This document shows, in pieces, positions 4,847 through 15,406 of a stretch of DNA of 64,000 nt. The stretch's first letter is position 1; the number at the start of each line of letters is the position of its first letter. The notes below the pieces were generated by a model. That model saw nothing but the letters and a program-made list of their open reading frames with translations. It made no database searches and was not told where the DNA came from. The position numbers and the translations under genes are program-made. Source of the DNA: Bacillota bacterium (GTDB lineage Bacteria > Bacillota > SHA-98 > UBA4971). The DNA is taken from positions 1-64,000 of the forward strand of contig JAAYXB010000047.1 of NCBI GenBank assembly GCA_012516125.1, written 5' to 3'.

Positions 4847-4956
4847 GTGATCGCACCCCCCTGAACATGGGCTGAACCGAGCCCGGGCGCCTTCGCTGCA
4901 GACGAGATATCGACATCGCCAGACTACCGCGAGCGAGGTGACCTTCGCTACGTACT

Positions 4957-5763
4957 TCAAGTTCCTGTTCCCTGATAACAGCTCAATCCGGCCTTGAACA
5001 TCCGGATCGCTGCGTAGAACAGCGCAATTGCTACGAGCGGCGTCAAATATGATAAGGCGCTTGCGGTTCGCGGCAAGAAGGCTTGCGCAGGCCAGAAACC
5101 CACAAAGGCAAAAGGGACAAGCGTCGATAGGACCCACTGCAGGGAGCGACCGTATATCGTTAAAGGATACTGCCCGAGCGTTCCCAGCGTCCCCAAGAGA
5201 CTCATGAGAGCGTCGTTTTCAACGGTCCAAAACGACAGCGAGCTCGCCGCGAGGATGATCGCGGCATATACAAGCGCACCCGCAACGAGGTTGATTATCA
5301 ACAGAGGCGCCCGCACCCACCAATTGACTTGGAGGTTGATAGCTGCCGTGAATAGGAGAGCCGCACCAAGTATCAGTTCTCCCCACCCGTCCTCGTCCCA
5401 GCCATCGGCATATATCTGGAATAGGGGATCGAGGGGTCTGGTGAGAAACCTATCCAGCCTCCCGAGGCGGATGTACGCCGAGAGGTCCATGCCGTTGATC
5501 ATGAACACGTGCCAGAGTGATCTGGCAGTTGTAAAGAAGCCGTAGATCAGGACGATCTCCCAGAAGGTCCAGCCCCGCACCGAGGGTAGCTGTCTCATGA
5601 CGAATACTATGGTGGTAAGTCCCAGGCACTCCTGTATAAATACAGCCGTGAAACCAATAATGAAGTCCACCGGTGAAACAGTTATCCTTCTCCAGTTCAT
5701 AGCTGCAAAGTGAGCATATAGTACGATACCTCTTACGAATCCGCGAAAGACCTCACCCACCAA
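4957..5763 (-). CDS. ABC-2 type permease (second membrane subunit)
   Basis: A 268-residue integral membrane protein with about six hydrophobic segments. It resembles the COG3694-type ABC-2 permeases that pair with a COG4587-type partner and a COG4586-type ATPase, all three being encoded here in one run. It starts MVGEVFRGFVRG and overlaps the end of the preceding permease by 11 nt, so translation is coupled. As last gene of the cassette it converges with etfA. The likely role is export of the peptide made and modified by the upstream genes (inference from context; the substrate of this family is generally undefined). Confidence 0.85.
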   Translation of the reverse strand: MVGEVFRGFVRGIVLYAHFAAMNWRRITVSPVDFIIGFTAVFIQECLGLTTIVFVMRQLPSVRGWTFWEIVLIYGFFTTARSLWHVFMINGMDLSAYIRLGRLDRFLTRPLDPLFQIYADGWDEDGWGELILGAALLFTAAINLQVNWWVRAPLLIINLVAGALVYAAIILAASSLSFWTVENDALMSLLGTLGTLGQYPLTIYGRSLQWVLSTLVPFAFVGFWPAQAFLPRTASALSYLTPLVAIALFYAAIRMFKAGLSCYQGTGT

Positions 5764-6544
5764 ACAAGCTCAGCCTCCTTCGGGCTATCGTCCAGGCAAC
5801 GCGCGAGAGCAACAGCAAGGTGATGCACCAGAATGCCTGTAGGCCCAAAACTGGTAGCGCTTGCGGGAGCGAGGTCTTGCCCACATAGATGCTGAGCGGT
5901 AAATAGTAGGCCGACTGGAACGGCAAAGCCCTCGCCAGGCGCTCGAGACCAGGGGGAAAGAAGTCCAGGGGCACTATGGCGCCGGAAAAGAAAAGGACGA
6001 TAGCGTCCTTGAGCTTATCCGTGCCCCATCCGTACTGAGTGTATATCCCTGCTACTCCTGCTAGAAAGCCCAGGAGAAGCTGGAGCACAACGCCGAGGAG
6101 CCACGCCAGTAGAAATACACACCATGTGCCAGCAGACGCCGGCACCGTGATGCGGAATGCCACCCAGGAGATAAGAAACATCGGCACGGACACGAACAAG
6201 CTTGCCGAAAGGGAGCGTCCCAGGTCTTTTGCCCCCAGGTATGCCTGGAGATCGACAGGCAGGCAGAGGTCTTTGGTGATCTCCCCTGAACGGAACTTCT
6301 TCGTGAGTTCCAGGCCGCTTCTAACCACGGTTGCCCGCATAAGCGCCTGAGATACTATGACATACGTCACCGCTTCGGTCATGGTGAAACCGCCAAGAAC
6401 CGATCGTCGCGCATAGATGGCCGACCATACCACCGCTTGCAGCATGACGCCGATTAGCCCCGTAACCACGCGTAGGAGCATGTTTGTCCTGTATGCCTGG
6501 TAGTCACGGAAAGAAAGAGCGATCACCCCGACGTATGTCCGCAA
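5753..6544 (-). CDS. ABC-2 type permease (first membrane subunit)
   Basis: A 263-residue membrane protein of the COG4587 type. It has an N-terminal hydrophobic region near residues 25-50, several further membrane segments, and a conserved-looking stretch FFSGAIVPLDFFPPGLERLARALPF typical of ABC-2 permeases. It overlaps the upstream ATPase gene by 22 nt and the downstream permease by 11 nt. Together these two permeases and the ATPase would form a heterodimeric exporter. Confidence 0.85.
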   Translation of the reverse strand: MRTYVGVIALSFRDYQAYRTNMLLRVVTGLIGVMLQAVVWSAIYARRSVLGGFTMTEAVTYVIVSQALMRATVVRSGLELTKKFRSGEITKDLCLPVDLQAYLGAKDLGRSLSASLFVSVPMFLISWVAFRITVPASAGTWCVFLLAWLLGVVLQLLLGFLAGVAGIYTQYGWGTDKLKDAIVLFFSGAIVPLDFFPPGLERLARALPFQSAYYLPLSIYVGKTSLPQALPVLGLQAFWCITLLLLSRVAWTIARRRLSLFGG

Positions 6545-7527
6545 CTGCTTTGCCCTCCTGAAAGCCGGTCGTAGATGGAGCCGATCACGAACTCCAGGTC
6601 TGGAGCCTTGACAGATATGTCTACCACCTTGCCCAAGCTGAACAGGCGCTCCACGACTGAAACGGGAGGCTCGGTGCCTTTCCCATGGATTACGAACCGC
6701 CCGTTTGCCCCCGACACTTCCAGACCGAGCGCGTCGCTGAGGCTCCTGCCCTCAACACGGTCATCGGCGAACCGCACCTCGATATCGTGGCCGAACGAGG
6801 CTAATAGCTCCGACACCATCCCGTCAAGAACTATTCGGCCCTGGTGCACCATTATGAGCCGGTCGCATGTTGACTCGATGTCCCCCAGATCGTGGGTAGC
6901 CAGGAACACTGTGACACCTATCTTCTTGAGGTGCGCCAGGAACTGCCTTATTCGCCGCTTGCCGCTGAGGTCAACCCCCAGGGTCGGCTCGTCCAAGAGG
7001 AGGAGCCTGGGGCCGTGGAGAAGCACGCTTCCGAGTTCTGCACGCATCTTCTCTCCTAGGCTAAGAGTACGAGCCGGCCTGTGAAGAAGCTTCTCCAGCT
7101 CGAGAAGGTCGACCGCCATCTCCAATCTCTTATCAAGGTCTGACCGGGGCACACCATATATCTTAGCAATCATCCTGTAGGAATCGATAACCGGCAGTTC
7201 CCACCATAGTTGCGTCCGTTGTCCGAACACCACTCCTATATTGTGGGAGTTGTGGATTCTGTATCGAAACGGGTCGTGACCAAACACGCGGACGCTGCCT
7301 TCTGTAGGCCGAAGCACGCCAGCAAGAATCTTGATCGTGGTGGACTTGCCAGCACCGTTAGGGCCGACATAAGCCACCGCCTCGCCTGAATTCATAGAGA
7401 AGCTGACCTGTTGAAGGGCGGGGACCTCAGTCCACCGGAAACTAAGGAGGTCTGCGGGCCACTTACCCACCAACTTGCGCACCCTATACACCTTCCTGAG
7501 ATTATTCACGACTACCGCTTCGCCCAT
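6523..7527 (-). CDS. ABC transporter ATP-binding protein
   Basis: A 334-residue ATPase of the COG4586 type. Walker A GPNGAGKST lies near residues 55-63, the Q-loop region contains FGQRTQLWWELP, the signature is LSLGEKMR, Walker B is LLLLDEPTLGVD and the H-loop is LATHDLGD. A C-terminal extension of about 110 residues after the nucleotide-binding domain is normal for this group. Only 3 nt separate it from the radical SAM gene and it overlaps the next permease, so it belongs to the same transcript. Confidence 0.92.
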   Translation of the reverse strand: MGEAVVVNNLRKVYRVRKLVGKWPADLLSFRWTEVPALQQVSFSMNSGEAVAYVGPNGAGKSTTIKILAGVLRPTEGSVRVFGHDPFRYRIHNSHNIGVVFGQRTQLWWELPVIDSYRMIAKIYGVPRSDLDKRLEMAVDLLELEKLLHRPARTLSLGEKMRAELGSVLLHGPRLLLLDEPTLGVDLSGKRRIRQFLAHLKKIGVTVFLATHDLGDIESTCDRLIMVHQGRIVLDGMVSELLASFGHDIEVRFADDRVEGRSLSDALGLEVSGANGRFVIHGKGTEPPVSVVERLFSLGKVVDISVKAPDLEFVIGSIYDRLSGGQSSCGHTSG

Positions 7528-7530
7528 CAG

Positions 7531-9759
7531 TCATCTCTTGCCTCCTGATACTGGTCCGGACAACACCTGTCTCACTAAGGTCTGAGCATTATCCAAATAC
7601 GTCTCAAACAGGAGCTGATTCGGAGGGCACGCACAATCACGATTTGAAACCAACGACTTGAGCGCACAGCCCCCACCGCAAACTGTTACCCAGTCGCATA
7701 GTAGGCATGTCTCCCTCTCTCTTATACGGAGAGATCCCCATCTTTCTATCGCATCGGTGTCTGCCTTGTAAACGGGGTAGTATTGACCCACAGCAAAAGA
7801 CTGGTACCCAATTGTCTCAACACAGCAATACACCAGCCCATCAGAACCGAGCGCCCAGATCAATCCGTTGGTCGCATCACATCCGCTCAACTGGGGAAAT
7901 GGTATCAGAGACGGCGAGCCAAGAACTCTGCTGAGAAATTGTAACACGCCGATCTCTCCCGTTGGAACAGAGAACAAACTCACCTCATCAGGATGCTGAG
8001 ACAGCGTTTGCAGGTATGCCTCGATAAAACTCACGTCATCGGCATCTTGCATGTTGTACCGTGGCGGGGGGTTACACATTGGGAACATCACTTTTGCAGC
8101 AGCCAACTTACAGTTAGCTCGGTCCAACCACCCTTGGCTTCTCGCGTACCTCGCCAACCAGACAAGCGCTGGAATGGAAGCGGCATCCACAACTGCTTGC
8201 ACGGTCACCTTAAATTCTTTCTCCAGTAGCTGAGAGATACCTGCGTCTACGAGTGCAAACGTTCCCTTTCCGTCTTTGCACGGTCGCCGATTATTGTGAA
8301 CCTCAGGGGGGCCATCGACGGTTATAAGAAAGGACTTGACGACATCGCGGTACTTGTCAAATAGCTGGACAAAATCTGGAACATGCACACCATTTGTGAT
8401 TACACTTACTGTGTACCCGCGCTTCTTTGCTTCGTCGAGGATATTCTCCACGATTGCCATGTTAGCCGGCAGCAACGGCTCCCCGCCGTAGAGGTGAACC
8501 ATAGGTCGCTGTGGAACGCCGATAGTAGACCTATTCGCGAAGTCCTCCATAGCGCGGTCGAACATGTCAAACGCAGAGACAACCATAGCATGATGCATCT
8601 TGCAATTGTTGTTGAGGTCCCATTGATTGCAGTAGATGCACGAGAGGTTGCAGTCAAAGGAAGGGACTATGTAAAGCCTTGGCTGGCGTGGCTGGACGAC
8701 TCTGAACTTCTCCAACAGAGTAGACATTACCTGTACGCCAACCGCGTACCAGCACGGATGAATGTCGCCCGCCGGGTCAAACACAAGGATGCCTTTGCCT
8801 GCCCCGCAGCGCCGACAACGGGGTTTAAGTACTCCTGTTTCGAATAGGCGCTCCAACACATCTCCTCCAGGGAAGTAAGGCTTAAACCCGCTTTCAGTTA
8901 GCACCTCATTGCCACCCGCGAAGAGCACATCCTCACGATGAAGCCCCCCATCAGGGGGTCCCAATAGCGATCCGAATGACACCTTGACCCGTCCCAGAAG
9001 CTCAGCCTTCTTGAGTCCATCCAGGAAAGCTGGGATACGGTGCATCGTACTGAAGCCAAACACGGTCCGGACTTGAACACGGTGTCCAACGCTAATGGCT
9101 GCGCGGAGCCCCCGGACTACTTTGGGCGCGAGCGCACCCCCCTGAACATCGTGGCATGTTACCTCGATCCACTTAGTCCGCTCCTCGGGGAACGCCGGAA
9201 GGAATTCCTCAAGCCACCAACCATTGGTCGTCACTGCAACGTCACAGCCGAGTTCAAGTGCTCTGTTAGTAATCCAGGTAACCTGCGACTCGTTGACGGG
9301 CAGAAGAGGCTCTCCCCCATATAAGCTCACGAGCCCCGGGCCGTTATGTGCCACAAAGTCCATTACTGCCTCACACTGAGCGCGAGACATGGTCGCCTTT
9401 TCCGCTCTTACTACACGTGAAGACTGGTAACAGTAGCTACAGTCAAAGTTGCAGACGTACGTTATCAGCAGAGAATAGTGCGGCATTTGAGGAATACATA
9501 AGTCCTTTTCCCAGAGAAGTTGCAATAGAGCTGTTACCGCTCCCCCCCAAATCCAGTAACCTCGCGTTAGCAGCACTTCATCCAATTCTGGCCAGATCCC
9601 GGGTGTGCAACACTGGGCATACTCGGCCTCATCGTTAGAAACGAGGTCTGCCGTACCGTGAAGCGGGTTTATGAGCAATGTGTTCTCTCCAACTGCAATT
9701 GGCACCACGTAGGGGTTTAACTTGATACGATCAACGCCGGTCTTGTTGATGAATTCCAT
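7531..9759 (-). CDS. Double radical SAM/SPASM peptide maturase
   Basis: A 742-residue protein with two fused radical SAM domains. The first has CNFDCSYC (Cys 103, 107, 110) and LYGGEPLLP; it ends in a short Cys-containing tail (CRRCGAGKG, then HPCWYAVG near 336). The second has CNLSCIYC (Cys 370, 374, 377), again LYGGEPLLP, then a SPASM-like auxiliary cluster region with Cys near 685, 688, 694, 698, 709 and 711. The first ~90 residues may be a peptide-recognition domain. SPASM radical SAM enzymes with GGEP motifs commonly modify ribosomal peptides or act as sulfatase maturases. No sulfatase is nearby, whereas a small peptide gene lies 156 bp upstream and an exporter lies 3 nt downstream, favouring RiPP maturation (inference). 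Confidence 0.9.
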   Translation of the reverse strand: MEFINKTGVDRIKLNPYVVPIAVGENTLLINPLHGTADLVSNDEAEYAQCCTPGIWPELDEVLLTRGYWIWGGAVTALLQLLWEKDLCIPQMPHYSLLITYVCNFDCSYCYQSSRVVRAEKATMSRAQCEAVMDFVAHNGPGLVSLYGGEPLLPVNESQVTWITNRALELGCDVAVTTNGWWLEEFLPAFPEERTKWIEVTCHDVQGGALAPKVVRGLRAAISVGHRVQVRTVFGFSTMHRIPAFLDGLKKAELLGRVKVSFGSLLGPPDGGLHREDVLFAGGNEVLTESGFKPYFPGGDVLERLFETGVLKPRCRRCGAGKGILVFDPAGDIHPCWYAVGVQVMSTLLEKFRVVQPRQPRLYIVPSFDCNLSCIYCNQWDLNNNCKMHHAMVVSAFDMFDRAMEDFANRSTIGVPQRPMVHLYGGEPLLPANMAIVENILDEAKKRGYTVSVITNGVHVPDFVQLFDKYRDVVKSFLITVDGPPEVHNNRRPCKDGKGTFALVDAGISQLLEKEFKVTVQAVVDAASIPALVWLARYARSQGWLDRANCKLAAAKVMFPMCNPPPRYNMQDADDVSFIEAYLQTLSQHPDEVSLFSVPTGEIGVLQFLSRVLGSPSLIPFPQLSGCDATNGLIWALGSDGLVYCCVETIGYQSFAVGQYYPVYKADTDAIERWGSLRIRERETCLLCDWVTVCGGGCALKSLVSNRDCACPPNQLLFETYLDNAQTLVRQVLSGPVSGGKR

Positions 9760-9915
9760 ATTGCCTGTCCCCTTGCCTCACAGATCCGCTTCTGACTACG
9801 AGCGTAGAAGCTGCCCTCAAGGCATATGACTCCAGCCGGCCAAAACATGAAAAGGAAGTCCAGAATCAACTTCTGCAGCTCAAAAAGTAGCCACTTAGGA
9901 ACTGTGGCATAGACT
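9760..9915 (-). other. Leader between peptide gene and radical SAM gene
   Basis: This 156-bp spacer holds a Shine-Dalgarno-like AAGGGGAC upstream of the radical SAM start. An open frame reading KWLLFELQKLILDFLFMFWP crosses it on the minus strand, but it has no ATG with a ribosome binding site before that segment, and I do not call it. No clear terminator is seen, so read-through from the peptide gene is plausible. Confidence 0.4.
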
Positions 9916-10089
9916 CTAAGCCATTAGGGCCTTCGTCTCAATAGGTGGTGGTGGTAAAACTGGTCCACCAGCAACAATTGCAGTACGGGATGGTCGGCCA
10001 TCCTGTTCTTGTGACCACATTGGACTCGGAAGGGTGACCGCAAAGGTTACCAAGAGAAGGACCATGCTGAACCCCAATGTTCGCTCCAT
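9916..10089 (-). CDS. Small peptide, candidate radical-SAM substrate (RiPP precursor)
   Basis: A 57-residue open frame starting MERTLGFSMVLLLVTF and ending AGGPVLPPPPIETKALMA. The N-terminal third is hydrophobic like a signal or Phr/SHP-type leader; the middle is polar (SQEQDGRPSRTA); the tail has a GG followed by a proline run. No cysteine is present. A G-rich stretch (GGGGGGGG) sits 5 nt before the ATG. A good promoter lies 50 bp upstream (10139-10168) and the next gene in the same direction encodes a double radical SAM protein, then an exporter. I do not recognise the peptide family; the precursor role is inferred from position, size and tail composition. Confidence 0.65.
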   Translation of the reverse strand: MERTLGFSMVLLLVTFAVTLPSPMWSQEQDGRPSRTAIVAGGPVLPPPPIETKALMA

Positions 10090-10120
10090 GTCAACCCCCC
10101 CCAGTTATCCTCATCCCTGA

Positions 10121-10137
10121 TTCTGTTTATGTTAGAA
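10121..10137. promoter_or_regulatory. Candidate operator in the divergent intergenic region
   Basis: TTCTGTTTATGTTAGAA has outer arms TTCT/AGAA and straddles the predicted transcription start (~10132) of the small-peptide promoter. It lies between that gene and the divergent XRE-TPR regulator gene, so it is a reasonable but weak candidate for the regulator's binding site. Confidence 0.3.
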
Positions 10138-10138
10138 T

Positions 10139-10168
10139 ATTATTGAGTAATCGACGAGTTCCTGTCAA
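10139..10168 (-). promoter_or_regulatory. Sigma-A promoter of the peptide/radical SAM cassette
   Basis: Reading the minus strand, a perfect TTGACA (10163-10168) is followed after 18 bp by AATAAT (10139-10144), a near-consensus -10. Transcription would begin near 10132, about 43 nt before the peptide start codon. This promoter position independently supports the small ORF at 9916-10089 as the first gene of the cassette. Confidence 0.6.
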
Positions 10169-10265
10169 CTGTAGACCAGGATTTCAATTGAAGCCAGGCT
10201 TGCATTTGACCAGCGAGGTAGGCCGACCCTGGAGCGTCGCATGTATAGGAAGGAGCGGACCTGGT

Positions 10266-11576
10266 ATGGGAAGACTGGGGCAGCGCATCAGAAGCGCACG
10301 GGTCTCAAAAGGGATGTCGCTGAATGCCGTTGCAGGAACAGCGTGTACGAAAGCACACTTAAGCGCTATCGAGCTGGGAAAGGTTCGTCCAGCACCACGG
10401 CTTCTCATGCACATCTGCCGTGTGCTAGACTTGCCTCTTGACGAGTTAGCAGCAGAGTACGCGAGTGAAGTAAGCGATCCCGGTAGCATACGAGTGTTAT
10501 GCGAGTCATTGCGAGTTCAGGGTGAGGCTCAAAAGGTTCTACCCTTGCTGGAGGTATTACCCCAAAAGGCAAAGGGGACACTGTCAGAACCGGCGGTTTA
10601 CCTTGAACTCGGCCGCGTGTACACATGCCTCAATCGGTTTGCAGACGCCCAAAGGGAATTTGCCAACGCCATTGACGCAGCAAGCCATAGGGCTATGTGG
10701 GCAGTCGCAGCCGAAGCCTTGTTTGAACTTGGAGTTGCCTGTTGCTGCCAGGGCAGATACAAGGATGCAATTGAATCCCTAAGCCGGTCTGCTAGAACGG
10801 CTCTGAAAGGAGGCGCGGGCAGGAGTGTGCTCCTTACGAGGTTCTGTTTGGGTACTTGTTTCCTCCGTGCGGGAATGCATAAGACGGCTTTGGACTTGTA
10901 CGAAGGGGTGTGCAGTGAGAACGTGCCCGTAACCTACGACGGAACGCCGTTGCAGGCTCTGGCTTACCTCGGGCTGGGTGTTGCGCACTATAATAGGCAG
11001 GAATACGACAAGGCTTTACGGGCCAATGACCTGGTCATTAGAATGTTGCGTTCTTCAGCTTCCGAAGGCAAGTACCTTGCCGACGCTTTCAACAACCGAG
11101 CGGTGTACCTTCTTGACCTTGGCGAATGCGATGAGGCAGGGAGTAACCTGCTGCAGGCGCTCAAGCTCCGCCGTAATGAGGATAAGCAGTGGTCCGGCAA
11201 GAGGATTCTTCTGTCTGTTACTGAATTCGCTAGGCTTCATCTGCAGAGGAAGCGCCCACTCTTGGCGAAAAAGGCAGCCGAGCACGGACTAACCCTTGCT
11301 CAGCGTTACAGGGACGTGTTCGAACAGGGACGGTTGCACACACTTCTCATGGCGCTTTCCCCGAACGAGTCCGATCGTCACAAAGCCGCCATATCAAGGC
11401 TTGGAGGAGAGTTGGCCATGCCGGAGGAGCGAGTATACTTCTACTCTGCCATAGGACGCTTCCTACGAAACACCGAATTTGAGGCAGTTGGAACGCAGTT
11501 TCTCGACCAGGCAATACGAGAATCGGAGAACCTATCGGTTCTCAAAAGGAAATGGTCTCACGAGAAGGGCAGGTAA
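10266..11576 (+). CDS. XRE-family regulator with TPR repeats
   Basis: A 436-residue cytoplasmic regulator. Residues 1-65 form a helix-turn-helix of the XRE type (MGRLGQRIRSARVSKGMSLN, then ELGKVRPAPRLLMHICRVLDL), followed by about 350 residues of helical repeats with TPR-like patterns such as YLELGRVYTCLNRFADAQRE and ALAYLGLGVAHYNRQEYDKAL. The start at 10266 is preferred over an upstream in-frame ATG because AGGAAGGAG lies 9 nt before it and the HTH begins there. HTH plus TPR is the layout of Rgg/PlcR/Rap-like regulators that bind small peptides. Divergence from the peptide gene suggests that it controls the cassette, perhaps in response to the mature peptide (inference). Confidence 0.88.
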   Translation: MGRLGQRIRSARVSKGMSLNAVAGTACTKAHLSAIELGKVRPAPRLLMHICRVLDLPLDELAAEYASEVSDPGSIRVLCESLRVQGEAQKVLPLLEVLPQKAKGTLSEPAVYLELGRVYTCLNRFADAQREFANAIDAASHRAMWAVAAEALFELGVACCCQGRYKDAIESLSRSARTALKGGAGRSVLLTRFCLGTCFLRAGMHKTALDLYEGVCSENVPVTYDGTPLQALAYLGLGVAHYNRQEYDKALRANDLVIRMLRSSASEGKYLADAFNNRAVYLLDLGECDEAGSNLLQALKLRRNEDKQWSGKRILLSVTEFARLHLQRKRPLLAKKAAEHGLTLAQRYRDVFEQGRLHTLLMALSPNESDRHKAAISRLGGELAMPEERVYFYSAIGRFLRNTEFEAVGTQFLDQAIRESENLSVLKRKWSHEKGR

Positions 11577-12276
11577 GATCGCGTTCACGGGCGTTACCAC
11601 ATACTGACATATACGCAGTGAAGGAACCTTGCGGCAAGGGTTGAGCAGCCATGCTGGTCAGCGGGAAGGCATCAGTACTGCCAATTCAGTGCTACCGACC
11701 AAGACCACAATCTCGCCGGTCACTCGGGCCTTGGCTGTCGGCGCCGGCGCAAAATGACGTTGGTGTAGGCGGAATTGCCAGTTGGGGGCGGCGTAGGTCC
11801 CGGGTCTGCCGGGAGTCGACTACTTGGGTTTTCCTATTTTGGAGGAGAGGGTAGCGGTGGCCGACGCGGAATAAGGAGCGAGAATGAGAGCGAGAAGCCA
11901 CTCAGACCATTCCTTCATGCACCATCCCGGCATACGCCGGCACCATTCTTATATGTGACTGTCACCCTTTCTAGCGCCTGCGACGACATTCCACCCCGGT
12001 ACCTGTAGCACGTGACAGACGTCAGGTATTCAAGGGTCCACGAGCAGCGCAAGTCACCTGATACGCCAGTCGAGCTTTCGGGGTATTGACACTAACGACA
12101 CGAGTGTGCATGCCGCGAGCACAGCAATGTCTCTCCAGGGAAATCCTCGGCCGGTACCCATAACACTCCGAACCGCGCTCGCCGCGTAGGTAGTCGGCAG
12201 GATCAATGACGTCCCTTGCAGGATCTTCGACAGATGCTCTAAGTGCGGGTTCAGAAATCACCGCCACTTTTCCAGG
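11577..12276. other. Decayed intergenic region with a repeat remnant
   Basis: No credible gene: open frames are short and lack ribosome binding sites. On the minus strand, 11900-11975 is a diverged copy of sequence at 13650-13730 (shared stretch around CATTCCTTC-GCACCA-CCC-GCATACGC). Around 11750-11790 a GC-balanced stretch (AATGACGTTGGTGTAGGCGG, then AATTGCCAGTTGG) looks like an insertion-sequence relic, but I cannot name the family. Confidence 0.45.
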
Positions 12277-12385
12277 GGTTGCCGATGTTGCACTCCGGGG
12301 ACTGCGCGCTTGCGGCGCACCTCGTTAGATTTGGCAGTCAGGCTTGCCAAATCGAGAGCGCTCCGTCGTGCAAGCACCGGCAACC
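12277..12385 (-). repeat. Structured dispersed element, copy 1 (109 bp)
   Basis: Terminal inverted arms GGTTGCCGATGTTGCAC and GTGCAAGCACCGGCAACC enclose two hairpins: TGCGC/GCGCA (12303-12319) and GATTTGGCA/TGCCAAATC (12328-12353). It matches the element at 51589-51701 in ends, order of hairpins and size, although the second hairpin's stem sequence differs while staying paired. It begins exactly where similarity of the ABC permease pseudogene ends, so it was probably inserted into that gene. Confidence 0.7.
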
Positions 12386-12689
12386 CGAAAGCTTCTCCCA
12401 AACCGGCATGAATTCCTGAACTCGCACTTAGAGGCAAGAAGACAGGAGCAAAGAACACCAGAATCGTGGAAAGCACCTGAGTGCCCATACTGGCTGCTTC
12501 GGCTGTAGGACTGTAGAATCCAATCACAGCCCCCAAGCCAGACAGGGAATAGGCGCAGAGCAGCAGGACAGGTGCTATTGCCACGTCAATGGCGAGACCA
12601 AATACGAGTCTTCCGAACCCCAACACGATGACTGTAGACGGCAGTGCCAGTACTACGCCCCGTGTTGCGAGCGCAAAAACGTAGGACAT
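12386..12689 (-). pseudogene. ABC-2 permease fragment
   Basis: About 100 residues of a membrane protein (LVFGLAIDVAIAPVLLLCAYSLSGLGAVIGFYSPTAEAASM, then STILVFFAPVFLPLSA) match the C-terminal half of ABC-2 permeases. The N-terminal half is missing and the C-terminus is cut by the structured element at 12277-12385. It lies directly behind the broken ATPase, so the two are remnants of one transporter operon. Confidence 0.7.
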
Positions 12690-13386
12690 CCCATAGCCGA
12701 CGTCGGTTCATCGGGTCCAGATCATTGGTTGGCTCATCGAGGATGAGGACTGGAAGATCGCCCATGAATGCTGAAAGGCCCCCCGCTAACCGTCGCTCAC
12801 CGCCGCTGTAAAACGCGAGTGCACGCCTACCGGTATGCTCTAAACCGAACTGCTCCACGAGGTCTCGCGCTTGCTTCGCAGCATCCAATCGTGGCGAGCC
12901 CCGGAAAACGCCTGTACAGCTCGGTTTCCGCAGTAGAAACGTCTTCCCAGCTAAAGGACGCAATGGTCACCTGTCGCAAAACAGTTGGAGGACCCCGGCA
13001 ACTGGCCCTTCAGCAGGCCATTTGTCAATTTAGCCGCGCTCCCAATGCGGAAAATGCGTACAGTAGAGCGCTTCAAAGAATGTGTGGGCACGGAGAGCCG
13101 CTGGCCGCTGACCAGCATAGGCGACCGCATACGGAACCGCAGCAGGGTTTGTCACAACGTCGGTCCCTAGAAGCGAGATCCGGCCAGACGTGGGCTTGAG
13201 CAGTCCTGCCATCTGACGAACAAGCGTGGTCTTCCCCGCTCCATTCTGGCCGACGATTCCGAAGATCTCCCCACGACGGATATCAAAGGAGATACAATCG
13301 TTCGCCCTGAGTCCAGACGGACCGTAAACCTTCGTAAGCTGCTCAACCTCATACACGCGGCCATTGTGGATGGCCGCAGTCAACAT
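12680..13386 (-). pseudogene. Frameshifted ABC transporter ATPase
   Basis: The N-terminal part (start 13386 after GGGAGGGATT) has [18 protein letters not shown] and Walker [10 protein letters not shown], and stops at 13030. The rest continues in another frame from about 12960 with the signature YSGGERRLAGG and Walker B VLILDEPTNDLDP, then loses similarity before the H-loop. Both halves belong to the drug/peptide-type ABC-2 ATPases. It is unrelated in sequence to the intact ATPase at 6523-7527. At least one frameshift plus a deletion make it non-functional. Confidence 0.75.
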
Positions 13387-13958
13387 AATCCCTCCCGTCA
13401 GAATCCTATCCCTACAACGCCAGGATATGGAATAGCCCGGTCTGTAGTGTGGTTTCTTCAGCAAGGCTCTGATTCGTCTGAGCCGCCGGTCAACTGGCGC
13501 TTGCTCTCTTGGTCAACGTCGCCTCTGGATTTGACCAGCTAAGCAGGAGACTATGTTGGTTTGTCCATAGGAGGCAGTGATCCTGCTTGTCTAGGTCGGT
13601 GCAATCTGTCACCAAGGCGAGGCGATCATCCGGCTGGGGTGGCATAGGCCCGGCCATTCCTTCGCGCACCACCCCAGCATACGCAAGGGTCATCCTTATC
13701 CAACTGCCACTTTTCCCGGGACGTGCGACGGCGGCTTGTTCCGGCATCTTCAGGTGGCATCGCAGCTACTCTATCGGTCTGTATGTTGAGACGACGCCTA
13801 GCCCTATTTCGTCAGATACGAAATGCCATTCGGCCTCGCGGGCCTGGCGCGCTTATCTGGAAGGGTAGCCTGGCAGGCTTGTCTGGGGGAGCGACTGCTA
13901 GCCCTGGTGGCCCTCGACTTGACCCCGCGGTTCGCGCAAGACCGTTCCCGGAAGATCC
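13387..13958. other. Intergenic region with a repeat remnant
   Basis: Non-coding as far as I can see. Sequence at 13650-13730 is the better preserved partner of the remnant at 11900-11975, in the same orientation. On the minus strand it contains GGGAAAAGTGGCAGTTGG, related to TGGAAAAGTGGC next to structured-element copy 1, suggesting that all are relics of one mobile-element family (inference). Confidence 0.4.
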
Positions 13959-14490
13959 GTGATGTACGGAACGGGTGGGGAGGAAAGAGTGACGCGTAGC
14001 ACCGGTCCCCTTGCACGCGTGACACAGGGAACGGGTCAGGACCGGACCGGTGATGTACATCACTGGACGGCTCTCAAGCGTGACGTGCGCAACAGTTGGG
14101 GAAGGACCCGTGATGTACGTCACCCGTCCCGCCTCGACGGGTGACGTATGGAACACTTCGTGGGGGACCCGTAACGCAGGGAACGAATAGGGCGGCAGTG
14201 ATGATGCACGTCACGGATCAGGCGCGAATGCGTGACGTATGGAACTCTTCATGAGGAACCTGTGAAGGAGGGAACGGATAAGGCGGGAACGATGACGCAC
14301 GTCACCGATTGACTGCTTATGCGTGACGTGCGGAATGGCAAGAGCCCGACGAGTGACGCACGTCACGCGCCCCCTGGCACATGTGACGTCGGGAACGCGT
14401 ATGGCCGTGACGGGTGAGGTGCGTCACCTGATAGCTGTCAACGATGACGCGGGGAACGCTTAGCGAAACACGCGTGACCTACGTCAACCG
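13959..14490. repeat. Palindrome array 2: 18 dyad-like units spaced 30/30/31 bp
   Basis: Eighteen copies of a motif close to GTGACGTACGTCAC or GTGACGTRYGGAACG begin at 13959, 13989, 14019, 14050, 14080, 14110, 14141, 14171, 14201, 14232, 14262, 14292, 14323, 14353, 14383, 14414, 14444 and 14474. The spacing runs 30, 30, 31 without exception, giving six 91-bp groups of three. Groups starting at 14141 and 14232 are about 80 percent alike. Seven units are near-full palindromes (for example at 14050, 14110, 14353); the others end in GGAACG. Units are degenerate and intervening DNA is not unique-spacer-like, so it is not a CRISPR array. Confidence 0.85.
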
Positions 14491-14686
14491 TCAACTGAAG
14501 CGACTGAATAGTCAAGCAGCGGCAATACCGCGAGATGCATACATGACAGAGTAGTCGTCCATGCCAGGCGTTGACCGACACCATCGAAACGAGCCAGTGG
14601 CCAGAGCGCACCGTGTTACCAGGAGCTACCCGTGTACCGGCGGCAGCAACAGTAGTAATGAGGAGTATCTTCGGGGGTTATTCGCT

Positions 14687-15406
14687 TCATGCACCTGCAG
14701 AAGGCTCGGATGGGTTTGTTCGGCAGTCCTTTCCATGCAGGTCCAGGATGAGCTGCACCTCGCCGCGGCCGATCCCGACCCGTCTCGCAATCTCCGGCAC
14801 GGTGAGGCCCTGATCCGCAAGGCGGAACACGAGGGCGTGTTTCTCGGGAACCCCGCCCGTGCCAGGTGCTGCCCCGGCCCCTGCTCCCGCCTCCGCGCAG
14901 GTGGCCTCCACCTCCACACTGGCAGCTTCCGCGCTTGTAGTGACACCGGCAACGCCCGCGTTAAGCTGGTGAGCTTCAGGCCGTAGCGGTGCGTCCACCA
15001 CCTGAGGCCCCGGCGCTGGCCCTGGACCTTCGTGCTGCTCAGTTTCGCGCTCAAGGGCCCCCAGCACTTCCCTGAGCCGCACGATCCTGGACTCCGCCTC
15101 GTCAAGAAGCCTGGCAGCAGCGCCGGCTTTCGCCTCAAGGTCCTGGATGGCCCTTGCCGCGGCCGCCTCGATTGCGCGGGTCGCCTCAGAAACGGCGTTG
15201 CCAGCACCTGAGTCGCCCGCGCCTGGGTCGCTCGCGCGTTTGCCGCGCTCGCGCTTGTGGCCCTCACGTCCGTTCGAGATGGCTTGCGCGCGTCGCTCGC
15301 CGATCATCATCCCCACGGAAAATACTATGAACAAGATGCCGGCCACGATGACGACCACCGCGGCAAAGATGTCCCAGGGCACCTGAGATAGCACCGAATT
15401 ACCCAC
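14687..15406 (-). CDS. Membrane-anchored flagellar-operon protein with C-terminal HTH-like domain
   Basis: A 239-residue protein: an N-terminal membrane helix (residues ~10-35, IFAAVVVIVAGILFIVFSVGMMIG), a charged then coiled-coil-like middle (EATRAIEAAAARAIQDLEAK, ARLLDEAESRIVRLREVL), a Pro/Ala-rich linker and a C-terminal motif LTVPEIARRVGIGRGEVQLILDL. This layout matches the DUF6115/YlxL-like proteins found at the end of flagellar operons next to sigD. Its function is not established. It is the last gene of the flagellar run; palindrome array 2 begins about 200 bp beyond its stop. Confidence 0.75.
   Translation of the reverse strand: MGNSVLSQVPWDIFAAVVVIVAGILFIVFSVGMMIGERRAQAISNGREGHKRERGKRASDPGAGDSGAGNAVSEATRAIEAAAARAIQDLEAKAGAAARLLDEAESRIVRLREVLGALERETEQHEGPGPAPGPQVVDAPLRPEAHQLNAGVAGVTTSAEAASVEVEATCAEAGAGAGAAPGTGGVPEKHALVFRLADQGLTVPEIARRVGIGRGEVQLILDLHGKDCRTNPSEPSAGA

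Follow-up and report, generated by a model that had tools for sequence, protein, structure and literature searches.

A 57-codon open reading frame lies between an operon for a radical SAM enzyme with two radical SAM cores and a divergently transcribed HTH-TPR regulator, in the 64,000-nucleotide stretch of Bacillota DNA analysed here (the window). In a sequence-only reading it had been proposed as a gene for a secreted signalling peptide or a RiPP precursor. The locus raises the question whether the frame is translated and, if so, whether its product is a signal, a substrate of the neighbouring enzyme, or both. We consider it probable that the 57-mer is an RRNPP-type (NprR/Qsr-like) propeptide paired with the HTH-TPR receptor, with the radical SAM/ABC operon as the probable output. 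The features concerned, and the loci with which they were compared, are collected in Table 1.

Table 1. Features of the locus (positions in the window) and sets of loci used for comparison.
Feature	Position or loci	Strand	Description or basis
57-aa propeptide gene, MERTLGFSMVLLLVTFAVTLPSPMWSQEQDGRPSRTAIVAGGPVLPPPPIETKALMA	9916-10089	-	ORF and translation, Shine-Dalgarno, shuffle test
Residues 1-26 of the 57-mer	10012-10089	-	Arg3, then uncharged hydrophobic core; Sec-signal-like by hydropathy
Residues 40-57, AGGPVLPPPPIETKALMA	9919-9972	-	Proline-rich tail, presumed to hold the mature signal; sequence, tails beside HTH-TPR homologues
G8 run	10095-10102	-	Shine-Dalgarno-like, with wobble pairing
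TTGACA-N18-AATAAT	10139-10168	-	Promoter-like, 11/12 match
HTH-TPR regulator, 436 aa	10266-11576	+	HTH (HTH_3/HTH_31) and TPR; presumed receptor of the pheromone, encoded divergently from the peptide gene
Double radical SAM protein, 742 aa	7531-9759	-	N-domain, rSAM1 (CNFDCSYC), rSAM2 (CNLSCIYC) with SPASM
ABC transporter ATPase	6523-7527	-	DrrA-like
ABC-2 permease	5753-6544	-	PF06182
ABC-2 permease	4957-5763	-	PF06182
Accessory island, ~9.9 kb	4850-14726		Flanked by an ETF/ferredoxin gene and by a cluster of flagellar genes
Variable-site loci	L155, L156, L157, L158, L159		Compared with window 4850-14726
Cassette loci	L036-L040, L073, L075, L079, L092, L094, L095		...AQCCSKSSKVVAGCHD peptide and maturase

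Translation signals and layout of the peptide

The frame starts with ATG, has the translation given in the sequence-only reading and is not antisense to any other gene. The bases 5' of the start (GATAACTGGGGGGGGTTGAC-ATG) include the proposed G-rich Shine-Dalgarno, a run of eight G whose pairing with the anti-Shine-Dalgarno requires G-U wobble and whose score of 17 is within the range for pheromone genes of relatives. The same-strand promoter was borne out as well: the ATG lies 49 nt 3' of the TTGACA-N18-AATAAT site (10168-10139), the sole such site in the window, where 0.05 would be expected by chance with at most one mismatch. Chance was also evaluated with 3000 dinucleotide shuffles of positions 9760-10265. 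A signal-peptide-like frame with any Shine-Dalgarno arose in 34 of them, one with a Shine-Dalgarno as strong as that of the window in a single shuffle, and the combination with an equally strong Shine-Dalgarno and a promoter-like site of at least 10/12 in none (0/3000).

The synonymous codon choice of the frame is not gene-like: it scores lower than any of the gene windows and lower than every spurious ORF tested. Low values were also obtained for clear pheromone genes in relatives (-0.05 for a gene encoding GPIIEPY repeats), so the codon test is weak for this class of peptides. A search of 398 genomes of the phylum revealed no homologue of the 57-mer, which makes a selection test impossible; five matches beyond its own (E 0.001-0.01) were rejected as chance, their frames being broken or overlapping other genes.

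The N-terminal hydrophobic core reaches a mean Kyte-Doolittle (KD) value of 2.74 over its best 12 residues, and no clear signal-peptidase AXA site was recognized by inspection of the sequence. No Cys occurs anywhere in the translation, in agreement with the sequence-only reading, and the tail is also free of Tyr and Trp.

The divergent regulator

The start codons of the 57-mer and of the regulator are 176 bp apart. The regulator contains HTH_3 (PF01381, 5.3e-7, residues 8-61) and TPR_12 (7.9e-15) domains, and its best natural sequence match in the PDB is NprR (E = 1e-4). With a six-member family profile, PlcR was matched across HTH and TPR (1e-15) and Rap was matched as well (2e-17). A two-sequence AF2 model (mean pLDDT 87), which superseded a poor single-sequence model, shows the HTH followed by approximately nine TPR hairpins. 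A fold search with this model returned TPR superhelices in general, with Rap among the first 50 matches and NprR outside the top 50; for this reason the fold alone is no proof of RRNPP membership.

In the regulator tree the window regulator forms a long branch of unsettled placement. Its nearest relative, and the only close one among the genome contigs searched, is that of UBA3570 (G287; ~25-27% identity over the full length). A 64-aa signal-peptide ORF is located 5 bp downstream of the UBA3570 regulator, with a tail containing GPIDPPDYPPG and ending ...GPNDGPIDPPDYPPGSGDGDSG. No direct or inverted repeats that might form an operator were found in the intergenic region of the window. Downstream of the window regulator, a 24-codon His-rich ORF (MRARSHSDHSFMHHPGIRRHHSYM, 11884-11958, plus strand) with a good AAGGAG site may be due to chance, and an apparently decayed ABC-2 transporter (12258-13464, minus strand) is left as an ATPase broken in two and part of a permease.

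Small secreted peptides beside homologous regulators

The regulator profile found a match in 100 of 329 genomes. From these searches, 44 loci with clear regulator homologues (window included) were compared with 128 other genes as controls, scoring ORFs of 30-100 aa at most 450 bp away with an early basic residue, an uncharged hydrophobic core, a polar tail and a Shine-Dalgarno. Such an ORF adjoined 12 of the 44 regulators (11/43 with the window left out) and none of the 128 controls (Fisher 2e-8, an optimistic p-value because the criteria were set after some loci had been inspected). When the Shine-Dalgarno requirement was dropped, the counts were 12/44 and 4/128.

Several tails beside HTH-TPR homologues contain proline (WDPPKP, NDPCP..LPPP, EWP, (GPIIEPY)x6), and within one regulator family tails are conserved among homologues. 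The WDPPKP tail is common to G033, G148 and G295 (with the forms VVVVLWDPPKP, AVLVQWDPPKP and LIVEWDPPKPE), and a NDPCP..LPPP..KSLP tail is found in both G148 and G225. A tail with NLPIFTPPPI upstream of the regulator in G099 and G133 was discarded, being antisense to a conserved gene. The window tail resembles the tails of these peptides, as judged by its proline-rich sequence, while the likeness between its GPVLPPP and the GPIIEPY unit is suggestive only. The latter unit is repeated six times in a 76-aa secreted peptide of G060 (L115:965-1195), encoded divergently to an HTH-TPR gene, which is likely to be a multi-copy pheromone; multi-copy pheromones with repeated mature peptides are known (PMC9765709).

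The radical SAM operon and the precursors of related maturases

The double radical SAM gene lies 156 bp downstream of the 57-mer on the same strand. The N-domain and the C-terminal core of its product align with SPASM maturases of 450-480 aa (24-30% identity); the two are separated by the insertion of another radical SAM core. No relative with this double architecture was found among 398 genomes of the phylum, plasmids, phages and viral contigs. The proposal to look for the conserved tail next to double radical SAM genes therefore pointed to the wrong place.

Most maturase relatives have a Cys-rich, leader-type precursor without signal peptide just upstream, typically ...AQCCSKSSKVVAGCHD; other Cys-containing peptides, which also lack a signal sequence, occur in this role as well. 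The 57-mer occupies the same position and so sits as a precursor would, yet, being Cys-free and provided with a Sec-like signal sequence, it looks unlike one. A Cys-rich precursor of the relatives' common type was not detected in this genome, a weak negative given the short query. The pairing of a ~40-aa ...AQCCSKSSKVVAGCHD peptide with a SPASM maturase just downstream recurs as a cassette in distant Bacillota, and no NCBIfam model was found for the peptide (one sequence tested). In G004, a genome of the same genus, the small peptide MEQITKETWLQKETTSGRIGVTCGMICSPYCVKSTPS, which contains Cys, is encoded ahead of a related maturase of 467 aa (L034:7179-8819), in a stretch that also holds transposase-like and integrase-like ORFs.

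Island character of the cluster and its insertion site

The G+C content of the cluster is ~0.54-0.55, compared to ~0.63-0.64 outside. In G004, window positions 4849 and 14727 are only 234 bp apart, between flanks that are 95% and 88% identical, and the flank on the flagellar side is a flagellar sigma-factor cluster. At the same insertion site, G003 has no island, G005 has a larger gap and G002 carries oligopeptide ABC transporter genes. With the island missing or replaced in relatives, the site is variable and the cluster counts as accessory. A 91-bp tandem repeat of about two copies is located near the island end (14141-14329). The suggested check for a conserved ORF in relatives found none but carries no information: the close relative G004 lacks the ~9.9-kb island altogether, so that conservation of the ORF cannot be judged from close relatives.

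A probable pheromone and its alternatives

In the published RRNPP signature, a receptor of 250-500 aa with TPRs is accompanied by a propeptide of 10-100 aa, located at -60 to 400 bp and carrying a secretion signal (PMC10075063). The locus largely matches this signature: the regulator has 436 aa and TPRs far below the E < 1e-5 threshold (7.9e-15), its HTH_3 corresponds to the HTH of transcription-factor members, and a 57-aa peptide is encoded divergently at 176 bp. As to a secretion signal on this peptide, hydropathy shows a basic residue and a hydrophobic core, and no clear AXA site was seen. Under the pheromone reading, the N-terminal signal sequence would direct export of the 57-mer, and processing would release a short peptide, rich in proline, from ...GGPVLPPPPIETKALMA. 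This peptide may be re-imported by an oligopeptide permease (at least eight oligopeptide-binding proteins are encoded in the genome) and may then bind to the regulator through its TPR domain; in its peptide-bound form the regulator would control the shared intergenic promoter region. The promoter-like site would drive the genes for the propeptide, the double radical SAM enzyme and the ABC exporter, presumably as one transcript, and cell density would determine whether a modified product is made and exported. Counted against the pheromone reading are the missing peptide homologue, the odd codon choice, the unclear AXA site, the long branch of the regulator, the general nature of its TPR fold matches, the post hoc criteria and the lack of an inverted-repeat operator.

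We regard it as unlikely that the 57-mer is instead a RiPP precursor, bound by the N-domain of the enzyme, modified in its Cys-free tail by both radical SAM centres and exported as product by the ABC transporter. No other small ORF upstream of the enzyme is credible, the 57-mer stands where maturase relatives keep their precursors, no precursor of their Cys-rich type turned up in the genome, and the N-domain retains all six residues (N31, G35, D38, R66, G67 and Y68) that are invariant in 13 aligned sequences, from which leader binding may be supposed. However, relatives' precursors have a hydrophilic leader rather than a Sec-like signal sequence, the tail lacks the common radical SAM targets Cys, Tyr and Trp, and a PDB sequence search gave no match of the N-domain to a solved leader-binding domain. 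Similar secreted peptides also adjoin HTH-TPR genes with no maturase or other radical SAM gene noted nearby, in an unsystematic look at their contexts. The signalling half of the sequence-only reading is thus better supported than its RiPP-precursor half: the former fits both the HTH-TPR gene encoded divergently and the finding that such regulators, across their class, pair with small ORFs that resemble signal peptides and contain proline. As no Cys-rich precursor was found, the 57-mer may also be an enzyme substrate. A peptide that is both, modified by the radical SAM enzyme before export and read in its modified form by the HTH-TPR receptor, is decidedly improbable; the pheromone itself would then be a RiPP within an RRNPP circuit.

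It is quite unlikely that the frame is untranslated and open by chance, with the promoter yielding a leader transcript of the radical SAM operon. Codon usage and the lack of homologues speak for this, whereas the rarity of such ORFs in shuffles, their absence beside all 128 control genes and the position next to an HTH-TPR gene speak against it. Many small membrane peptides consist of one hydrophobic segment and a short tail, as hydropathy indicates for the 57-mer, so that it could be another small secreted or membrane peptide, such as a toxin or immunity peptide, under HTH-TPR control and without a signalling role. This is very improbable in view of the proline-rich, extracytoplasmic tail and because such peptides turn up repeatedly beside homologous regulators, one of them with repeated signal units. 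The RRNPP-type propeptide is for these reasons the reading preferred here.

Comparison with known systems

RRNPP systems adjoining RiPP clusters have been documented (PMC10075063, PMC8092268). The SPASM maturases of the TIGR04463, NF038107 and PapB-like groups share with the window enzyme the N-domain, a CX3CX2C core and SPASM, with all matches below curated cut-offs; the enzyme differs by its extra radical SAM domain between N-domain and main core, and no Cys-rich precursor was found for it. In Streptococcus mutans, the SHP/Rgg (PdrA) system with the wgk RaS-RiPP operon (tryglysin) resembles the window in having a pheromone divergent to a TPR-type receptor and an adjoining radical SAM peptide operon (PMC8092268). 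That system has a short SHP and a separate precursor, WgkA, whereas in the window the propeptide is Sec-like and a precursor distinct from it was not found. For this reason, radical SAM modification of a quorum-sensing pheromone is directly testable here. RRNPP_detector candidates in 196 biosynthetic clusters share the signature and the kind of neighbourhood (PMC10075063), the window being a separate, island-borne case as far as the published description, rather than the tables, sets it apart.

The NprR-NprX and Qsr-Qsp systems of Bacillus and Clostridium are similar in their receptor of ~430 aa with HTH and ~9 TPRs and in the adjoining small secreted propeptide with proline in its tail (PMC7376267, PMC12700828). 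Their propeptide genes lie downstream of the receptor, whereas that of the window is divergent, and the window tail has no Trp, one of the three conserved residues (Leu, Pro and Trp) of clostridial Qsp tails, of which AEPTWGW is active (PMC7376267). The window receptor also stands apart by its low identity even to its nearest relative. In addition, the window pair adjoins a biosynthetic operon, while nine-TPR receptors have mainly been tied to dormancy and five-TPR receptors to biosynthetic clusters (PMC12700828). The pair most likely adds another case to a type of signalling between bacterial cells that is already known. If so, it would be a distinct, island-borne peptide-receptor pair, distant in sequence from validated RRNPP receptors and linked to a peptide-modifying operon with an unusual double radical SAM enzyme; a receptor of the nine-TPR type would adjoin a biosynthetic operon against the reported trend (PMC12700828), and synthetic tail peptides would offer a concrete way to activate a silent cluster.
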